From contig NZ_JADEWL010000041.1 in NCBI RefSeq assembly GCF_015207665.1, positions 1-49,293 on the forward strand: 49,293 nt of DNA. The letters are read 5' to 3'. Below, in pieces: positions 13,867 through 36,280 of the stretch. The DNA comes from Plectonema cf. radiosum LEGE 06105. GTDB taxonomy: Bacteria > Cyanobacteriota > Cyanobacteriia > Cyanobacteriales > Nostocaceae. The translations under genes were made by a program, and so were the position numbers. Under the pieces are notes generated by a model. It was not told the DNA's origin, ran no database searches, and saw only the letters and a program-made list of their open reading frames with translations. How positions within the stretch are numbered: position 1 is the stretch's first letter; each line of letters starts with the position of its first letter.

Positions 13867-15603
13867 TTACTGCTCAAACCCCTCAACCGATTTATTGGGC
13901 TGCTGTACCTGCGTGTCCCGGATTTCTTTTAGTTGAAGAATTCGTTTTTTCTCTTCTGAGGTAAATTCTTTAGAATTCTTAATAATCCAACCACCACCAG
14001 AAGCCGAATAGTAACCAGATAATATTGTTTCGCCGCTATCGTACCTTTGTACTTTCAAGATGGTGGCATCAGAGCTTAAGGTAGCGTGTAATGTATCGCC
14101 TTTTATTTCAAGGGTATTTTGATTAGCCATATACCCCGCGATAATTACGGCATATTTTGTTGCTTCGGGTTCTATGGCTGGCTCAATTACTTCTGGTTCT
14201 GGTGTACTAATTGGCTGGGATTCAATACCCGTATCAGCTTGTATAATATTCTTCTCCCGTTCTTTTTCTTCGCTATCCTTGGGACTGGGAAATACGGACT
14301 CAATCGACGGCATAACCAGGACGTAACTTTTTTGCGGTGGCGCTACTGCGTCCGTATTATCATTAGGAAAGCTAGTTACTTTATTATTGTTTTTAGCTTT
14401 ATTAATAATTAATTGCTTTTTAGCTTTATTACTTAGAGGTGTACCGAATACTTCTTCGATCGACGGTACAACGCTAATGTAATCTTTTTGTGGTGGTTTT
14501 ACTACATTTGTATTATCTGTAATTGATTCGTTTGTAGAATTGGAATTGTTATTGTTATTCGTAATTATTTCGGGGTAAACATCATCCGATGTAGTTGGTG
14601 ATTGAGTTTCCCTCTTTATTGGTGAAATAGGAATGGAAGAGAGGGGAACTGGTATTGTTTCTACTGACTGGGTTTGCTGTGGGGCAGATTCATTATTACT
14701 ATATTCAACTTCAAGCGATTCAATATTAGAATCCGATTCTTGATTCCTACACCAACTTTTTAGATGTTCTATCCACTCATCATTAATTGTACGCCCGCGC
14801 TTATGTGATTCCATCAACGAGGTAATTGGGTCAGAATAATGTTGCTGATAACCGACTCCCAAGTGTTCGCGTATACCAACGTGGGTATATAACTTGCCCA
14901 AATTCCCACCCTTGAATGCTTCTCCCTCCATGCAATAGCTAATTCCCTTGAGCTTGCCAGTACGGGTAAATTGACAACTAACTTGTATATTATCCTTTAA
15001 CAGCCGTGCTACAAATACGGGCATCTCTGGTTTATCTACGGCTGCTCGTTCAATCGCATTTTGCAACCGCTCGACTATATTTAATTCCCCCGCTGCTTTT
15101 TCTACGTGCTTGGGATATGCTTTCTTCTTTTCTACTTCCCAACTGCTAGGTTGAGGAATTAAGTTATAGGTTTTCTCAATTTGACGTAATAATTTCTCGG
15201 TGCGGTAGTAGTCCAGGTAATCGTCGTTGCACTTGCCGTTCACTGATACCCGGTTAATTACTAAATGTATATGGGGTCTAACTTCTCCTTCATATTCCGC
15301 ATCGTTGTGTTGAACCAAGATAAATTGATTGTTCGATAACTCCAATCCTTTAAGTAAATCCTGGGCTATCATGCATAATTCCCACTCGTCAAGGATTCTA
15401 TCATCGGGGGCGGGGCTTAATGATATGTGTAGCACTGGTTTTTCTACACGTTGATTTAACTGCGCGAATTTCCTAAATTCCCATGCTAAATCGGTGGGCG
15501 TGGTTGAAGCCATATTACTATTAATCATCTGTGCGTTTTCCTTACCCAAGACATAAGCAACACAACCGTAGAAACCATTCCCCTTCGTGATATTACCAAT
15601 CAT
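13867..15603 (-). CDS. MobP-type relaxase (Relaxase/MobA-VirD2 family)
   Basis: 578 aa. The N-terminus MIGNITKGNGFYGCVAYVLGK is typical of the MobP relaxase domain, with Y17 the likely nucleophile. The metal motif is HNDAEYEGEVRPHIHLVINR (H99, H111, H113). The relaxase domain spans about 1-260. The C-terminal 300 residues are low-complexity and Asn/Ser/Pro-rich. They contain two copies of a PPQK-Y-V-PSIE-VF motif (about 369-386 and 422-438), followed by a compact beta-rich end. Its MobC gene is 47 bp upstream on the same strand, so the pair is an operon. The repeated motif may dock a coupling protein; that is inference. Confidence 0.9.
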   Translation of the reverse strand: MIGNITKGNGFYGCVAYVLGKENAQMINSNMASTTPTDLAWEFRKFAQLNQRVEKPVLHISLSPAPDDRILDEWELCMIAQDLLKGLELSNNQFILVQHNDAEYEGEVRPHIHLVINRVSVNGKCNDDYLDYYRTEKLLRQIEKTYNLIPQPSSWEVEKKKAYPKHVEKAAGELNIVERLQNAIERAAVDKPEMPVFVARLLKDNIQVSCQFTRTGKLKGISYCMEGEAFKGGNLGKLYTHVGIREHLGVGYQQHYSDPITSLMESHKRGRTINDEWIEHLKSWCRNQESDSNIESLEVEYSNNESAPQQTQSVETIPVPLSSIPISPIKRETQSPTTSDDVYPEIITNNNNNSNSTNESITDNTNVVKPPQKDYISVVPSIEEVFGTPLSNKAKKQLIINKAKNNNKVTSFPNDNTDAVAPPQKSYVLVMPSIESVFPSPKDSEEKEREKNIIQADTGIESQPISTPEPEVIEPAIEPEATKYAVIIAGYMANQNTLEIKGDTLHATLSSDATILKVQRYDSGETILSGYYSASGGGWIIKNSKEFTSEEKKRILQLKEIRDTQVQQPNKSVEGFEQ

Positions 15604-15650
15604 TTCAATTCAAAATGCAACTGTAATTAATAGCCGAACCGATTGCAATT

Positions 15651-16073
15651 TCACTTGCGCCACGAGTTCTTATCCGGGTTATATTGATTGGGCATACCTA
15701 TTAGCATTTGCTTAACTTCTTGCAGCAATGGTTTTAATGCTTCAATTTCTGCTATTGGGTCGGTGGTAACGGGTTCTCCCATTTTGATAGCACGATTGAT
15801 AGCATAAGCAATTTGATTAATATTATTGCCGATTCTTCCTAATTCCGTATAGGCATCCGAATTGATGGCTGGTGCTGGTGGTGCAATGCGGCGATTCTCC
15901 ACGCAATAGCGGATAAACTTTGATAAATTATTCCCCAAACCCGCTTCCTCCGCTAATCGTTCCCATGCTTCTTTTTCTTCTTCCGTTAGCCGCAAACTGA
16001 TAAGCGAAGTGCGTTTCGGTAGTGGTTCAACTTTTCGTCCAGATTGAAAAACTTTTTTATTATTGGTTTTCAT
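15651..16073 (-). CDS. mobC: MobC-like relaxosome accessory protein
   Basis: 140 aa. A basic N-terminus and a ribbon-helix-helix-like region (about 20-60: ISLRLTEEEKEAWERLAEEA) are followed by the MobC signature ELGRIGNNINQIAYAINRA (77-95). MobC proteins bind oriT and help the relaxase reach its nick site. It is the first gene of the mobC-relaxase operon on the minus strand, so the oriT is expected in the 800-bp region directly upstream (16074-16877), where a dyad cluster exists. Confidence 0.9.
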   Translation of the reverse strand: MKTNNKKVFQSGRKVEPLPKRTSLISLRLTEEEKEAWERLAEEAGLGNNLSKFIRYCVENRRIAPPAPAINSDAYTELGRIGNNINQIAYAINRAIKMGEPVTTDPIAEIEALKPLLQEVKQMLIGMPNQYNPDKNSWRK

Positions 16074-17334: not shown

Positions 17335-20300
17335 TTAATACCCCGGCTCCATTACAGCCAGAGATATTGGGAATGCACCCAACAGCGCAGAAAGTAAATC
17401 AATTTGCGTTTTCCCATCTGTCATCTCCCAAATTTTGATTAAATCCGGCAGACTGTACCCATCGAATAGTACACTTATACTCTCTAACATCGTATCTCTG
17501 GGTTCAGAAGCTATTAAAGGTAGGTAAGTTTTGGCTACCCACTCTCCATCTGGGGGTGTGTTGGGGGGTGAATTATTTTTACTAGTTTTGGTATATATAG
17601 TCCCTTTAAGCAAAACTAGTAGAAATTCTCGGAGTTGAGAAATACGTTGCTGCGATACGTTTGCGAGTTTTGCGATTGCTTTTTGAGTAACTTTCTTACC
17701 TTCCGATAACAAAAGCTCAACCGCTTTCTTAATCGCTAGTTGCAAGCGTTCGAGTTTAGTTGCAGCTTCGGGGGTTATCTCAGATGCTTGAGTAAGTGTT
17801 ACGGGTAAATCCAATGGGAAATCACCTAAGATATATACTTTAAATTCCCTATCCGGGTATCTATCAGCGCGATTGCGTCCGATGGCTTGGTCAATCGTTT
17901 CCAAAATGCGGTGCCGGATAAAATCAGCGAAATCATTATCAATACTGACTTCATAATCAAAATCGGGCTGTACTCCATCCGGCATTGGGTTATTTAATTT
18001 AATTGATTGTTTGACCGTTTTAGTACCCTGGAGGGGCGTTCTACCATATATACAAGTAAATTCAGCTTTGAGTGCTTCTAGGTTAGGTGTGGGGATGCCA
18101 TCTAGGATTATATTTTGAATTCCTTCTAAATCATTGCTTCCTCTCGAATCTACGAACCACTGATATTTACCATCAAACTTCTTAAAGGTAATAAGCTCGC
18201 AGCTTTCCCCTTTCTCAGAGGATTGTTTGGTGATTTCTTCACATACTGCTTTACCGCGTCGCTGTTGGTCGTCACCGCGAGATATGCCCATCCGTCCGAG
18301 TCCTGCGACTTGAATTACTTCTAAGTTGCTTGGTGTTTCGGCTTTCTGCTTGCAGCTAAATATCTGAGTATAGGGTATTACCAGTAATTGAGCTAAATCA
18401 ATTACTCGTCCGGTCGCGTCCAGGAATATATTTTTCTTAGCAGAAGCAGCTATTTCTGCAAGCCTGGTGTTAGGAGTAGTAATTGTCAGGTGATTAAAAT
18501 CGCATGAGATATACCCGGTACAATCGCCTTTTAAGATTTCCAGTAACGGTAAAATCCATTGCTTCAGCACCGATTGCTTTACTTCCTGGGCGGTAACGTT
18601 ATCGCGTTGCTGGAAGCGCTTTCTTACGGATGCGGGTAAATCGGCGATATCTACCCCCGAATCAAGGGTGGGGTTGAGTGGAAGTAAATCTGGCGCGGTC
18701 GCCTCTTCAAGTGCTACTAAATCAATATTTTCTGGAAAATAAAACAATTCCTTTAAATGCTCGTAGCTCCACCCGTACCGCGTTGGGGCTTTCTCTCGGG
18801 AGGTAAGAATTGATTTTATCTTGTTAAGCAGTGGGTGTAACTGCTGCAATAGCTCAAGGTTATCTGTAGCAAGCGCGGTTATCAGCATATCCACATCTCG
18901 CGCTGTCACCTGTACTGATTCAAAATTCTTAAAGATTTGTGACCATTCCTCCCAAACTAGTACGCTATCTGAGTAATCAAAATCTTCTCCTGGTGATGGT
19001 AAACTTTGGGGGTGAGAAATTATACGACTATTACTGAACGTCTTGGCGCGGTCGTTCAAGTACCCGAATAAATGCCCACCCCTGCAAGCTTCTAGATAAG
19101 CGCAATTCTGACAAGCAACGTTAGCACTATAAGCCGAACGGATATTAGCGTTTTTGAGCGCGTTTATGGTATCTGTTCTCGCACAATTTGGTGAAACTAC
19201 ATATTTATCACCATCTTTTTTACGTCGCAGTTTACCTTTATCATCTCGAATTAAACCATTATGTCTACCTTCTAGGTGCGCCCACCCTTGCTGTAATGTT
19301 GGTGTGGTGGGATTGCGGGAATCATTTGAAATATAAAATATCTTCTCGCAATCAAAATCGGATGGCTGCAAATTACCAGCATCGTAGCTCTTACCGCTAC
19401 CAGTACCCGACGAATCAAAGATGTATTTATGGGGAGAATTAATCCAAGTAGAAACGCGATCTGCTTGCAGCAGCGCTTCGCTATCGCACTTTTCATATGT
19501 ATAAGTATAAGTTGAGACTTTGCATGGTTCCTTTTGGGTTACTTTTGGTTCGTCTTTGCTAAAGCCCCATGATTGCTTTTTACTGGTAAATCTTGCTTTT
19601 AGCTTGGGTACTAGTTCGAGTAATTCCTTAAAAGATTTTGCTGATTCCCACTCCTTACGGGTGATTAATCTATCTTTGGGCTTGTATTCAATACTTATAG
19701 ATGTAGCAATTTCTTGATTTAAAGCTGTAATACTCGCCAAGCCCGAATCAATCCAATCGGAGATATCACCTTTATCTGGGCATTCGGACCACATCCTTAC
19801 TGGATTAATTGCAATGAATGGGAGTTTCGCCTTGGCACAAGCGTAAGCTAACTTTTCGGCTTTCTTACGTCCGGCATCATCATTATCTGGGAAGTAGATA
19901 ATTCCGGCAATACCAGCATTTTTAAATCTATTGGCAGCTGTTGATAATGAATCTTCTCCCCAGCTAGCACCTTGAAAGGTAAACGTTACTAGTTTTAGAT
20001 CACTTCGAGAATTATCTGTATCTTTCTCCCCTTCTGCTCCCAATACCCATTTCCCAATACCATATTTTAAAACTTCATCCCAACAGTAGGGATGCCACTG
20101 TTTATCACCTTTCCCGCAAACTACTTCACCATTGCTTGAGGTGTGATAAGGCAAAGTTATTTTCTTGCCGTCCGGGTTTTGTTTTCTTAATACCCACTGT
20201 GTTGGGGAGTAGGGGTATTTAATTTCTGTGTACCTACCTCGGTTAATCGGTTGAGATGGAGTAGGGGAGTAGGGGAGTGTCGCTAATTCAATATCCCCGG

Positions 20301-20589
20301 ATGGAATTGGTGCGGGTGTTGGTGGTAAAGGTTTTGGTTTTCGTTTATATAATAGGCGCGAGTGAGAAGAATAGTTAGAAGAATTAAATAATTCTGGTGC
20401 AATTGCCTCACGTATATCTTTACTATCGCACTCGTTGCTCCAACATTTGTAAGCCCCCGATTTTTGATTAATCGTCAGCGAGTGACCGCCACACACCGGA
20501 CATTCATAGCGGTGCTTTCGCTTTGTGGGCGTAAGTCGGTCGTAGTAATTTCGGATGTCAAACGGTTCTCGGTTTTGGGAGAGTACCAT
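17335..20589 (-). CDS. CyRepA1-like plasmid replication protein (zinc ribbon, Toprim, helicase, HTH)
   Basis: 1,084 aa from the ATG at 20589. The longer GTG start at 20604 is less likely, because GGGAGGG lies 6 nt before the ATG. Numbered from the GTG: a CHC2-type zinc ribbon (C35, C38, C54, C59); a Toprim/DUF3854-like domain with E191 and D240/D242; then a superfamily 2-like helicase with Walker A SSGTGSGKS (about 398-406), a DEAH-like WEEW box (551-554) and motif VI QAIGRNRADR (906-915). A C-terminal HTH (about 971-995, QKAIAKLANVSQQRISQLR) follows. Four cysteines between Walker A and the DEAH box (C474, C498, C501, C507) look like an XPD/DinG-style iron-sulphur site. This primase-plus-helicase layout matches the cyanobacterial CyRepA1 class. 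It is translationally coupled to the leader ORF upstream. Confidence 0.85.
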   Translation of the reverse strand: MVLSQNREPFDIRNYYDRLTPTKRKHRYECPVCGGHSLTINQKSGAYKCWSNECDSKDIREAIAPELFNSSNYSSHSRLLYKRKPKPLPPTPAPIPSGDIELATLPYSPTPSQPINRGRYTEIKYPYSPTQWVLRKQNPDGKKITLPYHTSSNGEVVCGKGDKQWHPYCWDEVLKYGIGKWVLGAEGEKDTDNSRSDLKLVTFTFQGASWGEDSLSTAANRFKNAGIAGIIYFPDNDDAGRKKAEKLAYACAKAKLPFIAINPVRMWSECPDKGDISDWIDSGLASITALNQEIATSISIEYKPKDRLITRKEWESAKSFKELLELVPKLKARFTSKKQSWGFSKDEPKVTQKEPCKVSTYTYTYEKCDSEALLQADRVSTWINSPHKYIFDSSGTGSGKSYDAGNLQPSDFDCEKIFYISNDSRNPTTPTLQQGWAHLEGRHNGLIRDDKGKLRRKKDGDKYVVSPNCARTDTINALKNANIRSAYSANVACQNCAYLEACRGGHLFGYLNDRAKTFSNSRIISHPQSLPSPGEDFDYSDSVLVWEEWSQIFKNFESVQVTARDVDMLITALATDNLELLQQLHPLLNKIKSILTSREKAPTRYGWSYEHLKELFYFPENIDLVALEEATAPDLLPLNPTLDSGVDIADLPASVRKRFQQRDNVTAQEVKQSVLKQWILPLLEILKGDCTGYISCDFNHLTITTPNTRLAEIAASAKKNIFLDATGRVIDLAQLLVIPYTQIFSCKQKAETPSNLEVIQVAGLGRMGISRGDDQQRRGKAVCEEITKQSSEKGESCELITFKKFDGKYQWFVDSRGSNDLEGIQNIILDGIPTPNLEALKAEFTCIYGRTPLQGTKTVKQSIKLNNPMPDGVQPDFDYEVSIDNDFADFIRHRILETIDQAIGRNRADRYPDREFKVYILGDFPLDLPVTLTQASEITPEAATKLERLQLAIKKAVELLLSEGKKVTQKAIAKLANVSQQRISQLREFLLVLLKGTIYTKTSKNNSPPNTPPDGEWVAKTYLPLIASEPRDTMLESISVLFDGYSLPDLIKIWEMTDGKTQIDLLSALLGAFPISLAVMEPGY

Positions 20590-20930
20590 TACAGACCCTC
20601 CCACTGGAAATACTGTATTCTACGAATTGCTGAAGTACTGTAATAGCCTAGATGTGCAAAACGATCGAGCGGTTGCTGAAGGAAGTTTCTTAGTACGTCG
20701 AGAGCTAGATGCCAAGATGCCAACTTTCCCCCCATGCTTTCCGGTGTTTCGCGGTTTCTTAAGATGTAGCGGGGTCTATATAATGAGTCTTCTACGTCAC
20801 AAAAATTGCGTACATCTTTCAAAGGATGAAAGATTGAGCCATTGACGAAAGAATTTTTTACAAAAAGTATTGGGTATCTGAACTGAGAATTGTAGCTTTC
20901 TTGTTTCTGAGTAGATACGGAACTGACCAT
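20589..20930 (-). CDS. Small protein translationally coupled upstream of rep
   Basis: 113 aa, no recognised family. It is considered real because its TAA stop overlaps the rep ATG as TAATG, the classical coupling arrangement, and because GGAG lies 7 nt before its own ATG. The sequence is basic, with a conserved-looking C-terminal half (SWHLALDVLRNFLQQPLDRF). No membrane helix. The leader's Shine-Dalgarno is partly inside a 7-bp hairpin (20940-20967). By analogy with leader-peptide/rep pairs of other plasmids, its translation may be what lets ribosomes reach rep, so it could set copy number. It could also be a Rep partner protein. Confidence 0.65.
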   Translation of the reverse strand: MVSSVSTQKQESYNSQFRYPILFVKNSFVNGSIFHPLKDVRNFCDVEDSLYRPRYILRNRETPESMGGKLASWHLALDVLRNFLQQPLDRFAHLGYYSTSAIRRIQYFQWEGL

Positions 20931-21614: not shown

Positions 21615-21929
21615 TTAACTTTGTTTTGTTAAAGAATCTCTTAATTTCAGTAATTGCTCCGCGTCTAAATCTAAAATTTCAGCAACTTTTACGGTTTCAA
21701 TTAAAGATGGTTGTTCGCCTCCAATTAGTTTTTCTAAAAAGGATTTTAAGTGCTTCTTTATATGAAAGTCGTCACCAACTTTTTTTCTTGTTTTGACCGC
21801 TTCCTCAAGCAGCAAACGCATCATAGCCGAGAGCGGACGTTGTTCCCCCTCGGCGATTTTAGTAATTTCTTCTCTTAAGTCGGTTCCAGTTAAGTCAATA
21901 CTGACCCTCTGTCTTTCATTTTTAGCCAT
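21615..21929 (-). CDS. Ribbon-helix-helix-type regulator
   Basis: 104 aa from the ATG at 21929; a longer frame to 21986 runs through a dyad and is unlikely to be translated. The N-terminal MAKNERQRVSIDLTGTDLRE plus the helix RPLSAMMRLLLEEAVK fit a MetJ/Arc-type RHH domain (about 5-50). The C-terminal half is helical (LIETVKVAEILDLDAEQLLKLRD). It is divergent from the 22.3-26.5 kb operon. Its upstream DNA has an 11-bp-arm dyad (21936-21968), a tandem TTTGTCAGCA repeat (21976-21995) and an inverted copy (22029-22038), so it probably represses itself and the operon. An antitoxin role is possible, but no toxin partner is adjacent. Confidence 0.7.
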   Translation of the reverse strand: MAKNERQRVSIDLTGTDLREEITKIAEGEQRPLSAMMRLLLEEAVKTRKKVGDDFHIKKHLKSFLEKLIGGEQPSLIETVKVAEILDLDAEQLLKLRDSLTKQS

Positions 21930-21935
21930 GCAAAC

Positions 21936-21968
21936 AAGTTTATCCCAAAGATGACAGGGGATAAACTT
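21936..21968. promoter_or_regulatory. 11-bp-arm dyad upstream of the RHH gene
   Basis: AAGTTTATCCC (21936-21946) and GGGATAAACTT (21958-21968) are exact inverted copies with an 11-nt spacer, starting 7 bp before the RHH gene ATG. It is either an operator or an mRNA hairpin. It argues against the longer reading frame. Confidence 0.6.
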
Positions 21969-21975
21969 TTTGATC

Positions 21976-22038
21976 TTTGTCAGCATTTGTCAGCACTTAT
22001 ATGATTTTATGTTATTGTACTCTGTAAATGCTGATAAA
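21976..22038. promoter_or_regulatory. TTT(G/A)TCAGCA operator-like repeats
   Basis: TTTGTCAGCA occurs in perfect tandem at 21976-21985 and 21986-21995. The inverse TGCTGATAAA is at 22029-22038. The layout suits cooperative RHH binding between divergent promoters. The same core (GCTGATA/TATCAGC) flanks the start of the gene at 28923. Confidence 0.55.
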
Positions 22039-22149: not shown

Positions 22150-22210
22150 AGGTTATGCACTGTAATTTTTATCAGTGCGTGAGAATTTTTCAGTGCGTGG
22201 AGGTTTTACA
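22150..22210 (+). promoter_or_regulatory. Structured, repeated leader before the operon
   Basis: GCACTG (22157-22162) pairs with CAGTGC (22173-22178). TCAGTGCGTG is repeated directly at 22172-22181 and 22190-22199. Outer CTGCTGCT / ACAGCAGC segments (about 22136 and 22210) can also pair. It is an operator array or a regulatory leader about 80-140 bp before the first gene. Confidence 0.45.
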
Positions 22211-22287: not shown

Positions 22288-22722
22288 ATGAGGTTATCGT
22301 CACGTCCATTAAAAGATTTTTACGAGTCCAAATTAGGTAAAAAGATCAGCGATTCAAGCTGGTACAGAATTCAAGATTGCTTGCGTGGAACTTGTGGAGA
22401 AGTAACTTACTCAAATTTAGAAACTTACGCGACTATGCGTAAAGCTTGCCAGCGGCTACCAATTGAATTATCAGAATTTGCTCAAGTTTGGCAGGAAGTA
22501 GAAACAATCAGGAATTCTAAAGAAGAATCAATTGTTGGAAGTAAATTCAGAAAGATACTGATGAGAAAAATTCCTTCTTCTATTCCAGATATTACCTTTT
22601 ACCGTTGGTTTTACCGTGCTGGATTGAATTTTAGAAAGAGGGAAGAATACACACCCTCCGAATTAGTACCAGTCGTAGTCAGTGCATTTTGTTGGTATTT
22701 ACGCAAAAAGACGGAGCGTTAA
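22288..22722 (+). CDS. Unrecognised protein, first gene of the ATPase operon
   Basis: 144 aa, no family recognised. It is basic and helical, starts MRLSSRPLKDFYESKLGKK, and has the pattern of a small DNA-binding or adaptor protein, although no canonical HTH is certain (SSWYRIQDCLRGTCG and PDITFYRWFYRAGLNFRKRE are the most HTH-like stretches). GGGG lies about 9 nt before the ATG. The stop is 2 bp before the ATG of the next gene, so the two are co-translated. It is divergent from the RHH regulator and downstream of a repeat-rich leader. Confidence 0.65.
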   Translation: MRLSSRPLKDFYESKLGKKISDSSWYRIQDCLRGTCGEVTYSNLETYATMRKACQRLPIELSEFAQVWQEVETIRNSKEESIVGSKFRKILMRKIPSSIPDITFYRWFYRAGLNFRKREEYTPSELVPVVVSAFCWYLRKKTER

Positions 22723-22724
22723 TA

Positions 22725-23345
22725 ATGGCTAAAACAGATTTTATTAAACGTATTCAGAAACGATTGTCCGATAAAGGAATCAAGATAAGTAGAAATGATT
22801 TAAAAGCTGAAATCTCATCACTTGGTTTTGATTATTCCGCTTTAGGTGAAGAGAATGTTAATACGATTACCCGATTGCTTTTAGATAAGCATCAAAATAC
22901 AGAATTGACAGTATCGGAACCAGAAGAAATTACAGTTGCTCCGTCGGACGAGCATCACGCATCTACACCCAACTCAACAGCTATTACCAATCAGCAAAAA
23001 GAGCAATTGATATCAGTACAAGCTGAATCTTTGGGTATTAAGCTAGACGAATCAGAAATAACGGATATCTCTCAAACCGTCAGCGACTCATTTACCGACT
23101 TCGTTAGTGCTGTAGAAACTATCAACTCATCAATCAAAGATTACGCCCAAAGTAAATTTGATGAAGTTGAACAAAAAATTGATTCTAGCAACAGCAACCT
23201 GCGTGACTATATCAATAAGAGAACTACCAGCTTGCAAAGAAAGAGTGTAGAAGGAGCTATAACAACAAAGGAGGTACTAGAGCAAAAAAGCTCTAGCCTT
23301 AAAAGCTTCTCCAAAACACTCGCAGCAGCATTTAAAACCAAGTAG
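22725..23345 (+). CDS. Unrecognised soluble helical protein of the ATPase operon
   Basis: 206 aa from the ATG at 22725, two bases after the previous stop (a longer frame from 22689 overlaps that gene). The N-terminal 55 residues (FIKRIQKRLSDKGIKISRND) form a small helical domain. A Ser/Thr/Glu-rich linker (about 65-95) follows, then a long helical C-terminal half with heptad character (SDSFTDFVSAVETINSSIKD). Near its end an A6 run (23284-23289) precedes a +1 frame that stays open for 140 codons and encodes a membrane helix. A shift there would give a membrane-anchored version. Function unknown; possibly a filament or adaptor subunit. Confidence 0.65.
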   Translation: MAKTDFIKRIQKRLSDKGIKISRNDLKAEISSLGFDYSALGEENVNTITRLLLDKHQNTELTVSEPEEITVAPSDEHHASTPNSTAITNQQKEQLISVQAESLGIKLDESEITDISQTVSDSFTDFVSAVETINSSIKDYAQSKFDEVEQKIDSSNSNLRDYINKRTTSLQRKSVEGAITTKEVLEQKSSSLKSFSKTLAAAFKTK

Positions 23346-23703
23346 AGAACTACACTTTAAAAATGTATTTCGTCTATTAGTAATAATAATTCCTGCTTTA
23401 TTCCTAATAGATTACTGCTACCAATCAATCAGCTATCACTTCAAATATCAAGCCTACTTAGAAAGAAAAGACAGGGTACAGCAATACCAACAGTGGATGC
23501 AATATCAATGTACAGAAATACTAACAGAAGAGAGGATTAATCGTTGTGAAAAATACTGGCAAGCTGAAAAACTTGGTTTCTTCCAAATCGCGCCACCTAG
23601 AAAAACAACTACGTGGGAAATTCAACGCTTCCACAAACCTAATTTACAGGGCATTAATGGGCGACCAAAAAGCACTCAAACTAATCGGTCAAATGGGAAA
23701 TGA
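23281..23703 (+). CDS. Membrane-helix ORF without a standard start, overlapping both neighbours
   Basis: The frame is open from 23281 to the TGA at 23701-23703. It encodes a clear transmembrane helix (FRLLVIIIPALFLIDYCY), a YQAYLERKDRVQQYQQWMQY amphipathic stretch and a Cys-containing tail (CTEILTEERINRCEKYW). No ATG, GTG or TTG precedes the helix; the first ATG is at 23497, after it. The frame overlaps the upstream gene by 65 bp and the downstream gene by 158 bp. It is either the +1-frameshift extension of the upstream gene (A6 at 23284-23289) or starts at a rare codon such as ATT/ATA. The coordinates give the open frame and not a proven start. Confidence 0.45.
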   Translation, partial: SKKALALKASPKHSQQHLKPSRELHFKNVFRLLVIIIPALFLIDYCYQSISYHFKYQAYLERKDRVQQYQQWMQYQCTEILTEERINRCEKYWQAEKLGFFQIAPPRKTTTWEIQRFHKPNLQGINGRPKSTQTNRSNGK

Positions 23704-24199
23704 TGGAGCCAAAATAAGCGAATTTGCCCCCAAAGTTAAAGACAACATGATTGCTGCAATTAAGGGAGCAGAAGATTTAAACACAACCCTAGCAGCTATT
23801 TATAAACAAGCTGGTGTAAGTGGAGAAAGAATAGAACGAGAAATCCAATCAGCAACACTCGCTGACGATAAACTAGCAAATCAATTAGAAGAATTAAACC
23901 TTGATTTTGAAGGTGCTAAAAGTAGAGAGGAATTGCGCCATAAACAAGCTAAAGAACATATTACATTAAAAGCTTGGGTTGATAGACATATGATGTCGAT
24001 TGATGGCGAATACAAGATGCTGCAAGAAGAATTGAAAACAGAAGTAAGGCAGCAAACGATTGATTTACAGCACGATAAAGAACTGGGTAACTATTATCTT
24101 GATGCTGGTGACAATGCTAGAGATGATTTAAAACCTAAGAAACAATATGCAGGTCGTTCAATAATTCAAAAAATCAAAGATACAATCCTTGGATTTTAA
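23546..24199 (+). CDS. Unrecognised helical, charged protein of the ATPase operon
   Basis: 217 aa from a GTG, with AGAGAGG about 10 nt upstream. It is almost all helix with strong coiled-coil character from about 90 to 180 (REIQSATLADDKLANQLEEL). The N-terminal third is basic (KLKNLVSSKSRHLEKQLRGK). There is no membrane helix and no enzyme motif. The C-terminal end (GRSIIQKIKDTILGF) is a short amphipathic helix that could touch a membrane. It sits between the start-less membrane ORF and a structured 103-bp gap before the four-helix membrane protein. A structural or scaffold role next to the ATPase is a guess. Confidence 0.65.
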   Translation: MKNTGKLKNLVSSKSRHLEKQLRGKFNASTNLIYRALMGDQKALKLIGQMGNDGAKISEFAPKVKDNMIAAIKGAEDLNTTLAAIYKQAGVSGERIEREIQSATLADDKLANQLEELNLDFEGAKSREELRHKQAKEHITLKAWVDRHMMSIDGEYKMLQEELKTEVRQQTIDLQHDKELGNYYLDAGDNARDDLKPKKQYAGRSIIQKIKDTILGF

Positions 24200-24302
24200 T
24201 AAGGAAGAAAGGTAGATAAGTTAATAACAATACTACCATTTATTTATCTTTCTTACTTTTTAACTTATCCAACTTCTAACTCCCCCCAATATTCATCAAC
24301 AT
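24200..24302 (+). promoter_or_regulatory. Intergenic gap with a pseudoknot-like repeat order
   Basis: AAGAAAG (24205-24211) is complementary to CTTTCTT (24248-24254), and GATAAGTTAA (24215-24224) to TTAACTTATC (24260-24269). The order 1-2-1'-2' is that of an H-type pseudoknot. GGTAG/CTACC (24211/24233) is a competing stem. It could control the ratio between the two halves of the operon. Confidence 0.4.
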
Positions 24303-24863
24303 ATGATTGAGCAATTTGACGAATTAGAAGAACAAGAACATTCAGAAACTACACCAGATACCCAATTACCCAAAGACTTAATAGAACATTTGGAAGAACG
24401 TAAAAAACACAGAAAGCAAGTCATTCAAACAACGGAACTAGTACAGAAATATTTCATAAGTTGGTCGTTAAGTGCTAGCGGATTTTTCCTAGCAAGACTA
24501 CTTTTATTAATCAACGGTGGTGCATCTCTGTGGCTTGCAGCAGGATTGTGTTTTTCTATTTGCTCTATTAGTTCAATAGTTGGTTTATCTGGATTTAGAG
24601 CTAATTATAACGACGGATTTGAGGTTGAAGGAATGGAAAAACCAGTAAAAACAATTGGTGGGTTTGTAATAGCTGCTGGAAGTACTTGGTTAGCTATCAA
24701 AGACTATCAATACTTCCAGCAAATGACTACAGATAGCGCATATCAAATCAGCGCCGATATTCAGACTATTTATCAAGAAAGACCTTGGTTAGACCCTTGG
24801 CTATCAATTGGTATTGCAGCAGGAATAGTACTTGGTTCGTTATTTATTATTAGTAGGAGATGA
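24303..24863 (+). CDS. Four-helix membrane protein, partner of the P-loop ATPase
   Basis: 186 aa. A charged cytoplasmic N-terminus (1-48) precedes four predicted membrane helices at about 52-70, 75-98, 117-134 and 163-183 (LSIGIAAGIVLGSLFIISRR). No known family. Its stop overlaps the ATPase start (ATGA at 24860-24863), so the two products are made together and probably interact. Such a coupled pair recalls the membrane subunits that accompany conjugative coupling proteins, but this is inference. No signal peptide; the last residues are basic, which places the C-terminus in the cytoplasm. Confidence 0.7.
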   Translation: MIEQFDELEEQEHSETTPDTQLPKDLIEHLEERKKHRKQVIQTTELVQKYFISWSLSASGFFLARLLLLINGGASLWLAAGLCFSICSISSIVGLSGFRANYNDGFEVEGMEKPVKTIGGFVIAAGSTWLAIKDYQYFQQMTTDSAYQISADIQTIYQERPWLDPWLSIGIAAGIVLGSLFIISRR

Positions 24864-26353
24864 GTAGAAATACAGTTGAACTATCAGCAATCATCATATC
24901 AGCAGTAGTCGGCTTAACCGGCTTCTGCTTTTCTCATTCACGCCAACCTTATCGACTAGCACAAATACAATTTTGCCCGCAAACTGCTAACAAAAAAGAG
25001 AACATTTTAGCGGATAAAAATAAAGCTAAAAAACTACGATATTATGATTTAGAAAAAGCACAAAATAAACTAGATAGTAAATACTGCCATCAACCCAGAT
25101 ATGTTCTGGCAGAAGAGTGGGATAAATACAACAGCTATGGCTCAGTTATTCCATACATGGGTAACACAATTAGCTTAGTAAAAATAATCCCTAGAGATAA
25201 TCCTTATCAAGTATACGGTAACATTGCAACTACATTGGGACTTTGGGGAATTAGTTTTACTTTACTAATTAGAGTTAATCGATTAAAAAGAACCGACTAC
25301 CAATTAGGAGAAGAAGAGAAAAGTACGGCTTATTTTAATTGGCAACAACACAGACGTAAACGAGATATCAAACAACATTCCAACCAATTGCATACAGATA
25401 TTTTAAAAGACGGCTTAACCCAAGAAGATTTACAGCAAAGAAAAGAATTAGGGCTAACCGATGATGAAAACGAAGCTATTAAAAATCAACTTCAATCTTA
25501 TGATTATCTCAAAGCCAGAGCCGTAAAACATTCCGACATGGACAAACAAATTGCATCCAATCTACTGGATAAACATAAAGCAGAAAAAGAAATAGATAAA
25601 TTACAAAATAAAAAATTATCTCATACAAATACGAATCAATCCAGTGACAAACAACTGGTTAACTCCCTTATAGAAGCCCTCAAATCCCATGAAGACGGTT
25701 GGCTGTATGACCTTATTAAAAACGCTAAACCCCTGTGGCTGATTGGTTCTCAGGGTAGCGGTAAAACTAATACCGCAGGTGCAATATCATTAATTAGAAA
25801 ATACTGCTTTGATGCACCAATTTACCAACTGATTGATAGACACGCTACCGGAGAAAACTGGGAAGTATGGAAACTACTTGATGCTACATTAAAAGCCGAA
25901 TCAGAAGAAGAAATCGGACAGTCTTTAGAAGATGCTACTGATAGATGGTTACAACGAATCAAAGAAAAACCATCTACCAAACAACAAATAATTATTGATG
26001 AATTTACCAACCTGAAGAAAATTGATAGCTGTAAAGAAGCAGCAATGAAATTCTTCTCAATGCACCTTACAGATACTCGTAAAGCCAAAGAATACTTTAT
26101 TGGTGTTAACCACTATTTTACTAATGAAAGCACGGTAGAAGGAACATTTGAAGCCAGAAAATCAGGCACAATTCAACTTAAAAAGTTTTCAGCCAACGGA
26201 GAAACACCATTATCTAGAGTGCAAATTGTACATGGCTTAGTCGATGAGAATGGAAACGAATTGGAAGAAGTGGAAAGAACATTACCCAATTGGTTAGAAG
26301 CGAATAAGATTTATGGGCATTTCAATGGTAATCCGATTAACTTTGAAGGCTAA
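24860..26353 (+). CDS. Membrane-anchored P-loop ATPase, coupling-protein-like
   Basis: 497 aa. Two membrane helices (about 6-25 and 118-137) enclose a roughly 90-residue probably external loop with Cys39 and Cys76. A charged linker with coiled coil (about 150-255) leads to the ATPase domain: Walker A GSQGSGKT (296-303) and Walker B IIIDEFTNLKK (377-387), ending with a small C-terminal beta-rich region. The layout (two N-terminal membrane helices, extracytoplasmic loop, cytoplasmic ATPase with DEF-x-x-L) matches that of VirD4/TraG-type coupling proteins and FtsK-like pumps, though overall sequence is not recognisable. With two relaxases but no VirB genes on the plasmid, a minimal coupling factor is one reading; plasmid segregation or defence are others. 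Confidence 0.7.
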   Translation: MSRNTVELSAIIISAVVGLTGFCFSHSRQPYRLAQIQFCPQTANKKENILADKNKAKKLRYYDLEKAQNKLDSKYCHQPRYVLAEEWDKYNSYGSVIPYMGNTISLVKIIPRDNPYQVYGNIATTLGLWGISFTLLIRVNRLKRTDYQLGEEEKSTAYFNWQQHRRKRDIKQHSNQLHTDILKDGLTQEDLQQRKELGLTDDENEAIKNQLQSYDYLKARAVKHSDMDKQIASNLLDKHKAEKEIDKLQNKKLSHTNTNQSSDKQLVNSLIEALKSHEDGWLYDLIKNAKPLWLIGSQGSGKTNTAGAISLIRKYCFDAPIYQLIDRHATGENWEVWKLLDATLKAESEEEIGQSLEDATDRWLQRIKEKPSTKQQIIIDEFTNLKKIDSCKEAAMKFFSMHLTDTRKAKEYFIGVNHYFTNESTVEGTFEARKSGTIQLKKFSANGETPLSRVQIVHGLVDENGNELEEVERTLPNWLEANKIYGHFNGNPINFEG

Positions 26354-26355
26354 AT

Positions 26356-26532
26356 ATGAACAAAATACTAATTTTAAATGATTTTAATTATTTACCTGCT
26401 TACATATTACTCAAATGGGGAATATCAATGCCTTATTATGACTTAATCGAAATACTTAAAACCATCGATAGTTGGATTATTACCAATAAACAGCAACTTT
26501 TGAATGACTTATTAATCTTGATTGACACTTAA
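26356..26532 (+). CDS. Small ORF directly after the ATPase gene
   Basis: 58 codons. The ATG lies two bases after the ATPase stop, so it can be translated by reinitiation. The product is acidic/hydrophobic (LILNDFNYLPAYILLKW, then EILKTIDSWIITNKQQLLND) with no known family. The close spacing is the main argument for it being a gene; no separate ribosome-binding site was seen. Confidence 0.45.
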   Translation: MNKILILNDFNYLPAYILLKWGISMPYYDLIEILKTIDSWIITNKQQLLNDLLILIDT

Positions 26533-32394: not shown

Positions 32395-33894
32395 TTACAG
32401 GTCTGTAATCAACCTTGCTTTTCTAAGAAAGAATTGCAGTACAGTTTCTTCATGAGTAATAATATCAGCTCTACCATCCATACCCAATTGAATTTGACAT
32501 TTCTTTTGAGTGCGACCTAAAGCAAGCTTTTCTGGCTCAATCGTCACCTCGTAGAAAGCACCAGGCGCAGTTATTGAAGTAGCATTTGTTTCATTAGAGG
32601 CATCATTCCGAGTAGAAACAGTTGTATCTGGAGCAATAGTTTTGACTTTACCGTTGAGAGTACCGTAATCTGGATAAGGACAAGCTCCAACGCGCATTTG
32701 CACCTTTTGACCGACTTTTATCTTATCTTTACTTTCCGAACTTACCGCTGCTTTAATTACCTTGGGAGCTTTCTCAGGCACAATAATAACAACTTCCTCA
32801 CCAGCACGTACAGTTTGACCGGGATTTCTCAAATTTAGTTTGGAAATAATACCGTCATCTGTAGCGGTAATAGTAGTTTGATTCAGGTCAAATTCTATCT
32901 GTTTGAGTTCGCTTTCCTCGCGCTCTAATTGTTTTTCAATTTCAATTCTTTGTTGGATGAGTGCAAGACGTTCTTTTTCTACATTTGCTTTGTTGGCTTC
33001 CCCCGCTGCTTTTTCTTGAGCAATGCGTTCGCTTGCAATTGCTACCTCTGTATCAGTTGGGTTAAGAGCTGCTTTAGCGCCATCTCGTCGAGCAATAGCT
33101 GCTCCAACTGCTTGCTTTAACCGCTCAATTGTTTGTTTTTGCGCCTTAACTACTGCTTCTTGCGCTTGCACAGCTTGTTCTTGTTGATTCACAGCTAGCT
33201 GTGCTTCTTCCATTTGATTTTTAGAAAGCGCTCCTTTTTTGGCGACACCTTCATAACGATTGCTTTTTGTTCTGGCTGCTCCCAAGGAAGCGACCGTAGC
33301 ATTAAAATTTGCTAGTTCTGATTGTAACTGTGCTTGTCCTACGTGCAATTCTTCTTGTGCTATTTTAACGTTGGCATTTGCTTCTTGTAGTTCGGTGACG
33401 GTAGTAATTTTTTTGTCTTGATAAGCGCGCTCTCGACCGCTTAATTCAGCTTTGGCTGAGGCGATAGTACGGTTAATGCGGTCGGTTTCTGCTCTAATCT
33501 GAGTATTGAGGGCATTAATTTGGGCGTTGATTTGCATTCCTTGCAACTTGGCTTGCCCGATGTTGCTTTGCATCTGGCTTTTTTTAGTTTGTAGACGGGA
33601 ATCGTCGATAGTGGCAATTCTATCTCCTTTTTTTACCGCTTGATTTTCTTTAACGTAAATCTGCGTTACTTGTCCTTCTGTGGCGGCTTGGACAATTCGT
33701 AATTCACCCGCCGGACGAACAACAGCCTGTCCTTGGACAGTCACCTTATATTTAACAACAGCAGCCACGGGAACAGCTAGTCCCAAGACAAAAAGAATAA
33801 ACATTCCGCCAAAAGTCGTCCAAGGACTAATTGGTGGGAGAAATTCGTTTTCTTTCGCCTCCGGGAGGAATTTTGGGTTAGAGTTACTAAGCAT
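32395..33894 (-). CDS. HlyD-family membrane fusion protein of the C39 exporter
   Basis: 499 aa from the ATG at 33894; a longer frame to 33993 starts in implausible sequence. It has one N-terminal membrane helix (FGGMFILFVLGLAVPVAAVV), a beta-barrel/lipoyl half (VRPAGELRIVQAATEGQVTQ), long alpha-helical hairpins (about 85-340, heptads of Gln/Ala/Lys) and a second lipoyl/beta half (DGIISKLNLRNPGQTVRAGE). Such periplasmic adaptors link an inner-membrane ABC exporter to an outer-membrane TolC channel in type 1 secretion. It lies 200 bp downstream of the C39 transporter on the same strand. No TolC gene is on the plasmid, so a host channel is needed. Confidence 0.9.
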   Translation of the reverse strand: MLSNSNPKFLPEAKENEFLPPISPWTTFGGMFILFVLGLAVPVAAVVKYKVTVQGQAVVRPAGELRIVQAATEGQVTQIYVKENQAVKKGDRIATIDDSRLQTKKSQMQSNIGQAKLQGMQINAQINALNTQIRAETDRINRTIASAKAELSGRERAYQDKKITTVTELQEANANVKIAQEELHVGQAQLQSELANFNATVASLGAARTKSNRYEGVAKKGALSKNQMEEAQLAVNQQEQAVQAQEAVVKAQKQTIERLKQAVGAAIARRDGAKAALNPTDTEVAIASERIAQEKAAGEANKANVEKERLALIQQRIEIEKQLEREESELKQIEFDLNQTTITATDDGIISKLNLRNPGQTVRAGEEVVIIVPEKAPKVIKAAVSSESKDKIKVGQKVQMRVGACPYPDYGTLNGKVKTIAPDTTVSTRNDASNETNATSITAPGAFYEVTIEPEKLALGRTQKKCQIQLGMDGRADIITHEETVLQFFLRKARLITDL

Positions 33895-34093
33895 ATGTTG
33901 ATGGGGAGAGGGGGAGACAAGGGGACAAGGGTATGGAGAGACATTGTTAAAGTAAGTAGCGAGTAACGAGTAGCGAATAGGAAGTTTACCCAAAACTGTA
34001 TGACAATAAGAAGAATTTGCTATTTAATTATTACCCTCTACTCATCACTCCTAACTCCTAATTCCAATGCCCAATTCCCTTTCGGACTAATTA

Positions 34094-36280
34094 CTAATAA
34101 CTAGCATAAGAATTGAAACCGTTCTGAGGTGGGAGAAAATCGTCTAAGAAATCTAAATGCTCGCCTTTGATTTGACGCAATTCTTCCGGTTTTCCTTGAA
34201 TTTTTAAACGTCCATTTTCAAGCAGCACAATCCAATCAGCCCGTTGAATAACTTTAGGACGGTGGCTAATCATAATTGTGGTTTTATCTTGACGATAGTA
34301 AAGTAGTTTATCTAATACTTGGGCTTCACTTACCGGATCGAGAGCGCCTGTAGATTCATCTAAAATTAGTATGGGTGGCTCGGTCACAATCGCTCTGGCT
34401 ATGGCTAATCTTTGTTTTTGACCGCCGGAGAGGTTAGCACCAAATTCACCTAAAATAGTTTGATATTTATCTGGTAGTTTGCTGATAAATTCATCTGCAC
34501 CAGCAATTTGACAAGCTTTAACTATATCTTCAAAACTAATATTGGGATAACTAAAGTGGAAGTTTTCAATAATTGAACGACTCCAGAAGTGGGGTTCTTG
34601 GGGAACTAACACTACCTGTTGTCGCAAACATTCTAAAGATAAATCTTGTTGGTTGTATACACCATAGCGGATATTACCAGATTGAACTTTGTATAAACCA
34701 GCCATTAGTTTAGCAAGAGTGCTTTTACCGCAGCCAGATTTACCTATTAAAGCAGTAACTTTACTACCTGGAATATTTACGGAAAAATCTGCTAATAAAT
34801 CAACTCTACCGGCGTGGTGGAAATTAATGTTAGTACAAATAATATCTTTATGACGAGAAATTTCTGCCCAAGGCTTTTTAAAATCATTTTCATCTTCTGG
34901 GGTGGTATCAATAACTTCATTCAAACGTTGGATAACAACTTTAGCAATTACAAACTCATCAATTAACCCAATAGCAGTACTCAGGAATCCGAGAAAGTTA
35001 CCACTCATGCCATAAAAAGCCAGCAGTTGTCCAATAGATAAAGTATTACCAATTACTAGAAAACTACCTAACCACAGCACGCCAATACTAGTTAAACTTG
35101 AAAAAATACCAGTAATTGTACTGCTATAAAGCTCCAGCTTCATAGTTTTCCATCCTACGTTGGCAATCCGACCGTAATTCGCTTGATATTCTTGCCATGC
35201 TTGGGGTGTGGCTTGAGTAGTTTTTAATACTTGAACGCCGCGAAAAGTCTCTACAAGAAAACCTTGATTCTCCGTACCTAAAACAATTTGTTTGCGGCTT
35301 TGCTGATGCATTGCTGGGAGGAAAAGCAGGTTAATAACTGCAACCAAGATAAAAGCAACAATAGAAGCTAATGTAAGTTGCCAGCTGTAAAACAGCATGA
35401 AGCTCAAGGAAACTATGGCGATAAAAAATTGACTGGGTAAACCAAGAACTATCTGGGAAACTAGTCGGTTAACTGCACCAATATCAGCAATCCGGCTGAC
35501 TACTTCCCCACTGCGACGACCTTCAAAATATGATAGGGGTAAGTGCAACAGTTTGCGCCCATATTCAAAGATTAACCCTAATTGCAAGCGCTGACCAAAG
35601 TGACCAATTAAGTGAGCCTGTACTAAGCCAATGACGCTTTGAATTAAGTTTAATGTAATTACCCCAATTGCTACGGTGGTTAACAATTGAGTATCTCCCC
35701 GCACCAGTACATCATCGGTGAGGAGTTGCATCATAAATGGAGATGTTAAGGAAAGTAATCCCACTGCAAAGTTAATTGCGATCGCTTGAGCAAGAATAAA
35801 CCGATAGGGCAAAACCCTGACCAGAAAGCGTCTTATACCTTCTACTTTATCTTCTGGTTGCTCGTGAAAGCGGATGTCGTCTGGCACCAAGAGCAACATA
35901 ACACCGTTAAGCCAACTACCAATTAACTCCTCTTCGCTGAGATAGCGGATACCTACACCAGGGTCGGAAATTACATATTTTTTACGTTTTTTTGCGTATA
36001 AAACTACCCAGTGGTTGCCTTTCCAATGAATAATCGCTGGTAAAGGAGCGTTGTGCAATTTCTTCAAAAACTCACTGCTAGCTCTGACACAATGAGCATT
36101 GAATCCTAGAACTTCTGCACCCCGGCTCAAACCCAACAAAGAGGTTCCCCGCGAACCTGTTCCTACTGCTTCCCGCACCCGATGTATGGCAAAGTTGCGT
36201 CCGTGATGTTTAGCAACAGTCGCAATACAAGCTGCACCACAATCTTCTTCACTGTGTTGTCGAACAACTTGGTATTTCAT
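34094..36280 (-). CDS. Peptidase-C39 ABC exporter (PCAT / bacteriocin type)
   Basis: 728 aa. The N-terminal C39 peptidase (about 1-125) has Q8, C14 (DCGAAC), H90 (GNHWVVLY) and D106 (ISDPGVG), a complete catalytic set. Membrane helices span about 160-440. The nucleotide-binding domain carries Walker A GKSGCGKS (513-520), the signature LSGGQ (617-621), Walker B ILILDE (637-642) and the switch His in MISHRP. Enzymes of this type cut leader peptides after a double glycine and export the product. Two candidate substrates lie upstream on the same strand: the proteins at 38327-38710 and 40527-40880. The HlyD partner follows. Confidence 0.95.
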   Translation of the reverse strand: MKYQVVRQHSEEDCGAACIATVAKHHGRNFAIHRVREAVGTGSRGTSLLGLSRGAEVLGFNAHCVRASSEFLKKLHNAPLPAIIHWKGNHWVVLYAKKRKKYVISDPGVGIRYLSEEELIGSWLNGVMLLLVPDDIRFHEQPEDKVEGIRRFLVRVLPYRFILAQAIAINFAVGLLSLTSPFMMQLLTDDVLVRGDTQLLTTVAIGVITLNLIQSVIGLVQAHLIGHFGQRLQLGLIFEYGRKLLHLPLSYFEGRRSGEVVSRIADIGAVNRLVSQIVLGLPSQFFIAIVSLSFMLFYSWQLTLASIVAFILVAVINLLFLPAMHQQSRKQIVLGTENQGFLVETFRGVQVLKTTQATPQAWQEYQANYGRIANVGWKTMKLELYSSTITGIFSSLTSIGVLWLGSFLVIGNTLSIGQLLAFYGMSGNFLGFLSTAIGLIDEFVIAKVVIQRLNEVIDTTPEDENDFKKPWAEISRHKDIICTNINFHHAGRVDLLADFSVNIPGSKVTALIGKSGCGKSTLAKLMAGLYKVQSGNIRYGVYNQQDLSLECLRQQVVLVPQEPHFWSRSIIENFHFSYPNISFEDIVKACQIAGADEFISKLPDKYQTILGEFGANLSGGQKQRLAIARAIVTEPPILILDESTGALDPVSEAQVLDKLLYYRQDKTTIMISHRPKVIQRADWIVLLENGRLKIQGKPEELRQIKGEHLDFLDDFLPPQNGFNSYASY

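Follow-up and report, generated by a model that had tools for sequence, protein, structure and literature searches.

A conserved plasmid- and prophage-borne gene set of Nostocaceae with a RecA-like ATPase and a candidate +1-frameshifted membrane anchor

Contig NZ_JADEWL010000041.1 of Plectonema cf. radiosum LEGE 06105 carries, on its plus strand between positions 22288 and 26353, a compact series of genes, here called A to F, that encodes membrane proteins and a putative ATPase. The window analyzed is this entire contig of 49,293 bases, from a draft assembly of 323 contigs and 7.6 Mb. Gene A (22288–22722) encodes a soluble protein of 144 residues, which the open reading frame (ORF) list and an alignment suggest is a possible helix-turn-helix (HTH) DNA-binding protein. 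Gene B (22725–23345) begins with the ATG at 22725, 2 nucleotides after A, and specifies 206 residues of coiled-coil-like character. Genes D (23546–24199) and E (24303–24863) encode a soluble protein of 217 residues and a membrane protein of 186 residues, respectively, and the stop codon of E overlaps the start of F (24860–26353) as ATGA at 24860. The 497-residue F protein consists of an N-terminal part with a membrane helix (Fn, to about residue 262) followed by a RecA/FtsK-like ATPase module (Fc, 25607–26350). These sizes, the 2-nucleotide gap and the ATGA are as described in an initial annotation that was made from the window sequence and that recognized the five ORFs as tightly coupled.

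That gene list was incomplete, however, since a membrane ORF, C (23344–23703, plus strand), lies between B and D and had been missed. Conversely, a small downstream gene had been counted as an operon member; this 58-residue ORF (26356–26532) has no counterpart among ORFs of at least 45 residues in the 34 other loci searched, and it probably lies outside the A–F set. The initial annotation also gave E four membrane helices and F two. A hydropathy scan (19-residue windows, Kyte–Doolittle (KD) value above 1.5) yields three in E and one in F; a fourth helix in E is possible, and additional helices in both proteins beyond those scanned are plausible.

Comparison across loci indicates that the operon is real and conserved. 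Among 102 distinct loci with F, all 50 in which A, B, D, E and F were detected keep the order A-B-(C)-D-E-F, and the genes are thus conserved together. The other 52 are partial (DEF 20, CDEF 11, F 9, EF 8 and four singles). These derive mostly from short fetched stretches, with exceptions such as locus L051, which has D–F within 18.7 kb.

The overlooked ORF C is found in the +1 frame of B. In the window, this frame is open from 23281, and C consists of one membrane helix (23365–23421; KD 2.07 over 19 residues) and a tail, with no start codon ahead of the helix. The same +1 frame, open across the B stop codon, is used at 78 of 80 distinct junctions, with overlaps of 23 to 110 nucleotides, and this register is kept even as the distance from the B stop codon to the helix ranges from 0 to 24 codons. 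In 93% of the 30 clusters into which the junctions were grouped, the +1 frame stays open over 50 or more nucleotides ahead of the B stop codon; the corresponding figures for A, D, E and F are 21%, 20%, 28% and 57%. Of the 30 clusters, 27 have a +1 membrane ORF that runs through the stop codon of B. Such an ORF is seen at the ends of A, D and F in none, and at the end of E in 9 of 29, where F itself starts with a helix. No ATG, GTG or TTG precedes the helix in the C frame at 25 of the 80 junctions (13 of 30 clusters), and 12 of these 25 also lack ATT, ATC, ATA and CTG; the remaining 53 of the 78 carry at least one ATG, GTG or TTG there. A start codon for C is missing from all ten loci of the window cluster, and a phage-type locus (L168) keeps the +1 layout, again with no start before the helix.

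The substitution pattern indicates that C is selected as a protein. Six clusters with at least four loci show a third-position excess of variable sites in the C frame (p = 0.003, 0.0002, 0.001, 0.013, 0.022 and 0.073), such that five of the six, including the window cluster, fall below 0.05; for the L045 cluster, four of ten loci were left out, having too little C before D. Database annotation overlooks C, as no coding sequence is listed at this position in three example records.

The 3′ end of B carries a candidate recoding signal. The sequences AAA-A and TTT-Y permit the same tRNA to re-pair one base on. In the window, a candidate +1 slip site, AAA AGC, is located at 23286–23291, with another AAA AGC 5 codons further, and a Shine–Dalgarno (SD)-like element, AAAGGAGGT (23267–23275), has its GGAGG beginning 16 nucleotides 5′ of the candidate slip codon. 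AAA-AGN is present in the last 27 codons of B in 22 of 30 clusters, compared with 1/29 for A, 0/30 for D, 3/29 for E, 0/30 for F and 4/90 for upstream windows of B. If TTT-YNN is also accepted, all 30 clusters, including those of L011 and L050, have a site (controls: A 7/29, D 12/30, E 8/29, F 11/30, upstream B 10/90). The site scored is the first match; that of L047 is taken at −78, and L138 and L139 require a site within 23 nucleotides of the stop codon. Codon choice is also skewed, with Lys-Ser written as AAA-AGY in 24 of 29 cases near the end of B versus 44 of 234 elsewhere. Half of the clusters (15 of 30) have an SD-like motif (GGAGG, GAGGT, AGGAG or GGGAG) 4 to 28 nucleotides 5′ of the site, compared with 50 of 1135 same-length windows in B; in seven clusters, GGAGG stands at −21 or −22. 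Around the slip site, synonymous positions vary less in four of the six larger clusters. As a separate observation, the slip site of the window sits within a perfect inverted repeat, CTAGAGC-AAAAAA-GCTCTAG (23277–23296), which by eye is kept with changes on both arms in L053, while its outer pair is not kept in L113.

The +1 register, the slip site and the enrichment of SD-like motifs together indicate a programmed +1 frameshift, which very likely yields a membrane-anchored B-C protein. The loci combine a downstream ORF that lies in a fixed shifted frame, runs open through the stop codon and often lacks a start codon with a conserved slip site and a stimulator, the motif being post hoc and the SD-like sequence present in half of the clusters. 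Several observations weigh against this interpretation. The slip motif was picked after inspection, the clusters are related by ancestry, and synonymous variation near the site is not lower in the L009 and L010 clusters. Moreover, C is in the other frame in L011 and is absent from L050, 55 of 80 loci have some ATG, GTG or TTG in the C frame upstream of the helix, and in L209 C has its own ATG (TAATGA) in another frame. A copy of the B coil was looked for in this separate C of L209, and no significant one was found.

The start codons in these 55 loci and the arrangement in L209 would also fit a different origin of C, namely re-initiation at unusual start codons past the B stop codon, or transcriptional slippage, the latter being compatible with some sites that are runs of six or seven A or T. 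We regard this alternative as quite improbable. The +1 register is maintained despite the variable spacing between stop codon and helix, 12 loci offer neither the common nor the rarer start codons, and most AAA-AGN sites hold just four A's.

Pairwise identities show that the set is composed of three exchangeable blocks: A with the N-terminal half of B (Bn), the C-terminal half of B (Bc) with C, D, E and Fn, and the ATPase module Fc. Over 50 loci, A and Bn correlate at r = 0.91, D, E and Fn at r = 0.94–0.98, Bc with D, E and Fn at r = 0.66–0.71, and Fc with every other block at r = 0.33–0.40. Among the 1275 pairs formed by 51 loci, 42 combine an Fn identity of at least 75% with an Fc identity of at most 50%, and 57 combine Fn of at most 45% with Fc of at least 75%. 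Ten DNA comparisons place the start or end of a shared stretch inside F, at approximately residues 208–285. Partial Mantel tests reveal weak ties to Fc beyond Fn for A (p = 0.008), Bn (p = 0.004) and Bc (p = 0.012), and none for D or E. Adjacency alone could explain part of this linkage between blocks.

Copies that share a genome provide a further comparison. Relative to the copies on contigs C304 and C213 of the same genome, the window copy is 24% identical in A and 29–31% in Bn, 94–97% identical in D, E and Fc, and 84–88% in Fn. Among pairs with Fn at least 80% identical, A is at least 60% alike in 6 of 14 co-resident pairs versus 44 of 66 others, which is no more than suggestive of co-resident copies differing in A more often. 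Of the 41 loci selected for this comparison, two lacked a gene and were excluded. In four of 34 co-resident pairs, every block reaches at least 80% identity. Overall, we consider it likely that the products of A to F constitute a co-adapted membrane complex.

The putative motor was examined by structure prediction. An AlphaFold model of full-length F from six sequences has a mean predicted local distance difference test (pLDDT) value of 36.8, and a model of Fc from nine sequences has a mean pLDDT of 85.8 and a predicted template-modeling (TM) score of 0.86. A Foldseek search of the PDB with Fc gives the best E-values to RadA/RecA (1e-5), and the highest TM scores among the best 50 matches belong to FtsK (6t8o, 0.52) and EccC (4n1a, 0.51). 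Among viral models, an FtsK-named siphovirus protein reaches a TM score of 0.54 and unnamed ones up to 0.57. Fc thus has a modeled RecA-like fold with Walker A and B motifs. Its membership of the FtsK/HerA superfamily is no more than plausible, as the structure matches mix RecA with FtsK, the PDB sequence profiles give AAA+ and signal recognition particle (SRP) proteins, and a single DUF87 match was obtained. That DUF87 match to HerA was barely reached, by one of 29 F-like proteins (L056, E 7.6e-5, 23.3 bits versus a cut-off of 23.2). Other findings count against an FtsK/HerA assignment. The RecA/RadA E-values are better than those of FtsK, and TM scores among the best 50 are just 0.33–0.52; a RAD51-paralogue chain also reaches 0.50, and AAA+ proteins score 0.33–0.36. 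By sequence profile, Fc is matched chiefly by P-loop segments of AAA+ and SRP proteins, and neither FtsK nor HerA is among the best 60 sequence-profile matches of the motor. PDB sequence-profile searches with F, A, D and Fc returned P-loop or chance-level matches. The N-terminal helix and the modeled RecA/FtsK-like module nevertheless agree with the earlier description of F as a membrane-anchored P-loop ATPase.

The suggestion of an undescribed, machine-like set is likewise borne out, by the strong joint conservation of the genes and by profile searches, in which the window proteins reach no named family. For A, B, D, E and F of the window, no Pfam or NCBIfam match exceeds the curated cut-off; F gives sub-threshold P-loop matches in these scans. 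The best E-value of the window proteins in PADLOC is 0.014, with no match to a known anti-phage defense family, and other F types yield mad8 at 1.4e-5 (L168, sub-family-level) and Avs2 at 0.0014 (L012). No operon protein matches a ParA/ParM or ParB family as expected of ParABS or ParMRC systems. There is also no family match to type IV coupling proteins of the VirD4 type and no consistent link to relaxase or type IV secretion system (T4SS) genes, though the window holds relaxases. The PHROGs matches are of unknown function: 30531 to A (3e-4), 30525 to B (0.005, weak), 31528 to the D protein of L214 (1e-11) and 29669 to F (1e-14). A literature search, with subscription papers and preprints outside its scope, gave no description of the A–F operon or its frameshift among the papers listed, and the main text of a frame-transition survey names neither Nostoc nor Anabaena (PMC3711429).

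Protein A probably binds DNA, given a conserved T-x-x-RWF / G-x-F / Y block read by eye in its alignment; a point against is that library profile searches with A gave no supporting match for DNA binding. Upstream of A, the initial annotation had proposed control by a divergent ribbon-helix-helix (RHH) regulator with a tandem operator. The regulator, a 123-residue protein on the minus strand (21615–21986), has only a borderline RHH_5 match (E 1.9e-5, 24.8 bits, cut-off 26). The repeat pair is real in the window, where TCAGTGCGTG occurs at 22172 and 22190 and two copies were found in 0 of 100 shuffles (the pattern was chosen after reading the repeat), but among 223 loci, many of which end short of the region upstream of A, the pair is present in one, the window itself. 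More generally, iterated repeats of the centromere type were looked for upstream of A, and no 11-mer in three copies (one mismatch) is present in 43 of 47 regions of 450 nucleotides; L049, L126, L129 and L143 have such repeats.

Further upstream in the window lies a divergent, primase-like replication gene of 1089 residues (17335–20604, minus strand; phrog_47 DNA primase, E 8.5e-9). The window also carries a ParA-type gene, HlyD/C39 export genes, a Tn3 transposase and integrases, and by this gene content it appears to be a mobilizable plasmid. Two relaxase types are encoded (10924–12747, 13867–16073), one being Mob_Pre and having a toprim domain, the other being MobA/VirD2-like and accompanied by NikA/MobC, and no T4SS gene is found among the window ORFs scanned, which are part of all ORFs. 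Elsewhere, an HlyD-type adaptor adjoins a C39-peptidase ABC exporter (32395–36280), an arrangement typical of peptide export, and a 1242-residue protein with AAA_35 and WD40 repeats (44032–47760) is encoded near an HTH and AAA_35 gene (41469–42758).

The set is concentrated in one family and is common on plasmids. A tblastn search matched F at 45 places on 45 plasmid records, one place each, and these plasmids are typed as mobilizable (26) or non-mobilizable (19), with none conjugative; D was also matched on 45 plasmid records. Of 386 genomes sampled across the phylum, F is found in 21 (19 in its own family and two in other families of the order) and D in 19 (18 within the host family). When a phage-type D served as query, 5 of the 29 relatives of an outside genome gave a match. 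Within the host family, which we take to be filamentous and heterocyst-forming as judged from named plasmid hosts, F matches occur in 105 of 217 genomes, some being fragments, with up to seven matches per genome. Strains with such a plasmid include Calothrix brevissima NIES-22 and Nostoc sp. ATCC 53789. Annotated stretches hold ParA-type and/or ParB genes in 9 of 16 cases (several stretches being part of a record) and, as in the window, a named primase/helicase-type gene divergently upstream in 8 of 16. The host genome itself has three F copies and a divergent fourth locus. This locus (L209, contig C250, 5097–10822) comprises A, B, D, E and the separate C noted above, which has an ATG, and a 185-residue ORF unmatched by the F profile occupies the place of F. 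In the D-E-F sets of loci L210, L211 and L213, F is about 630 residues long and no A or B is recognized; L213 has an actin-like ALP gene nearby.

Some copies are viral. Contig L167 of IMG/VR, identical over 17,686 nucleotides to contig C53 of genome G300, carries A, B, D and F, with E not detected. Nearby genes match a lambda-type tail fibre J protein (phrog_31, E 5.7e-207), a tail assembly protein (2.3e-36) and an endolysin (1.9e-17), and genes to the right look chromosomal from a reading of ORF starts, so that the set appears to sit on a siphophage-like prophage. In L168, which has all of A, B, D, E and F, neighboring genes give a ParB-like match and a weak match to a tail fibre (6.6e-4), and L214 and L215 combine a D match with an ORF of 596–643 residues in the place of F, that of L214 matching phrog_29669. 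In IMG/VR, a single F as query and alignments A4 and A5 gave no match, alignments A2 and A6 each gave one locus, a further scan returned the same contig again, and the F of L057 gave two. Isolated-phage records contain no match to the window F, the L168 F or D, or the L055 F. A further contig listed as viral, L074 (IMG/VR, 51 kb), has an ORF whose start looks actin-like by eye and no recognized phage gene, and is possibly a plasmid.

We tentatively propose, at somewhat less than even confidence, that A–F is a mobile-element-borne inner-membrane machine that acts on the DNA of its own element and has a frameshifted anchor. Ribosomes that stay in frame would make soluble B of 206 residues. Some ribosomes would slip +1 at AAA-AGN (or TTT-YNN), aided by the upstream SD-like sequence, and continue into C to produce a form of B that has a membrane helix and, on the far side, a short tail. 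Protein A, probably DNA-binding, would dock on the N-terminal half of B, while Bc, C, D, E and Fn would form the membrane scaffold and the RecA/FtsK-like ATPase of F would serve as a motor that moves DNA. The output would be the pumping or pulling of element DNA at the membrane, most likely between neighboring filament cells, with tethering for inheritance a close second. We infer recoding in cells, a single complex, DNA binding by A, DNA movement by the motor, and the output.

Confidence differs among the parts of this proposal. Action on DNA seems slightly the better wager. Cell-to-cell transfer as the output is possible, though at low confidence; it is slightly favored because the set is element-specific, because ParA/ParB coexist with it on many plasmids, and because it is concentrated in one family. 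Still more doubtful is the complete picture, a T4SS-independent DNA pump common to the plasmids and prophages of multicellular cyanobacteria that carries the element along the filament, with frameshift-set anchoring, a cassette address (A-Bn) and a cassette motor (Fc). An integrated prophage, moreover, gains little that is obvious from cell-to-cell spread, which speaks against transfer.

Some of the same observations could reflect membrane-tethered inheritance or positioning, wherein A marks the element DNA, B-C with D, E and F holds it, and the motor separates or places the copies. The occurrence of the set at one place per plasmid in all 45 records and its divergent primase/helicase-type neighbors fit such a role, as does the low similarity of A, below 60% in 8 of 14 co-resident pairs whose scaffolds are nearly identical, which would be expected if A were an address tag. 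The ParA-type and/or ParB genes already present in 9 of 16 annotated stretches, and the prophage copy beside chromosomal-looking genes, argue in the other direction, and we consider this function doubtful.

An exclusion or defense role, in which the complex keeps related plasmids or phages from entering or becoming established and A-Bn and Fc are exchangeable specificity parts, is rather unlikely. It would accommodate a set common to plasmids and prophage, the modular exchange of blocks, the restriction of 18 of 19 phylum matches of D to the host family, and the mad8 match of the phage-type F; conflict systems have reportedly been tied to multicellular prokaryotes in one study. It does not sit easily with the PADLOC results for the window proteins, with up to seven F matches per genome, or with the four co-resident pairs alike in every block.

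The initial annotation had offered a minimal DNA-transfer coupling complex as one function. As a specific form of this idea, F could be the coupling ATPase for the plasmid's own relaxase in mobilization, for which the relaxases and NikA/MobC of the window and the 26 mobilizable F plasmids might speak. This guess is weakened by the 19 non-mobilizable F plasmids, by A, B, D and F on a prophage, and by the finding that, among the matches listed, 32 of 40 records below 100 kb matching one MOBP relaxase are not in the F and D lists (60 of the 75 relaxase records are listed, 7 of the 40 match the C-terminal part only, and the F list holds 40 of 45 records). We consider it highly improbable.

The motor gene is matched in about half of the host-family genomes examined, and yet no part of the set bears a name. 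Should the set prove to move or hold DNA at the membrane, it would represent a new motor system and account for the persistence or spread of small plasmids in organisms whose cells form chains. The frameshift, if true, would be a conserved case of recoding that decides between a soluble and a membrane-anchored protein.

The proposed features have partial parallels in known systems. In VirD4-type coupling proteins, as in F, the membrane part is N-terminal and a RecA-like ATPase comes after it, but F has no match to their family and is not consistently linked to relaxases. Recoding in prfB has an SD-like stimulator upstream, as does the end of B. In dnaX, recoding uses slippery Lys codons, like those near the end of B (PMC5009743). 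B-C differs from both in its long SD spacing, its +1 product and its gain of a membrane anchor. Streptomyces TraB is described as an FtsK-like protein for T4SS-independent plasmid transfer and spread with Spd proteins (PMC5365140, PMC4170104), and TraB/Spd resembles A–F in combining a plasmid-borne RecA/FtsK-type motor, a multicellular host and small accessory proteins. Unlike TraB, F has no FtsK_SpoIIIE match in Pfam, and A–F has six components, a frameshift and a prophage copy as well. Thermus TdtA is described as a HerA-like DNA donation ATPase, an orphan FtsK-HerA-type export motor that acts without a T4SS (PMC5365140); its described operon neighbors are a nuclease and other genes, unlike those of A–F, and its sequence relation to F was compared via Pfam alone. 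By analogy, TraB/Spd and TdtA are the nearest working models for the A–F set.

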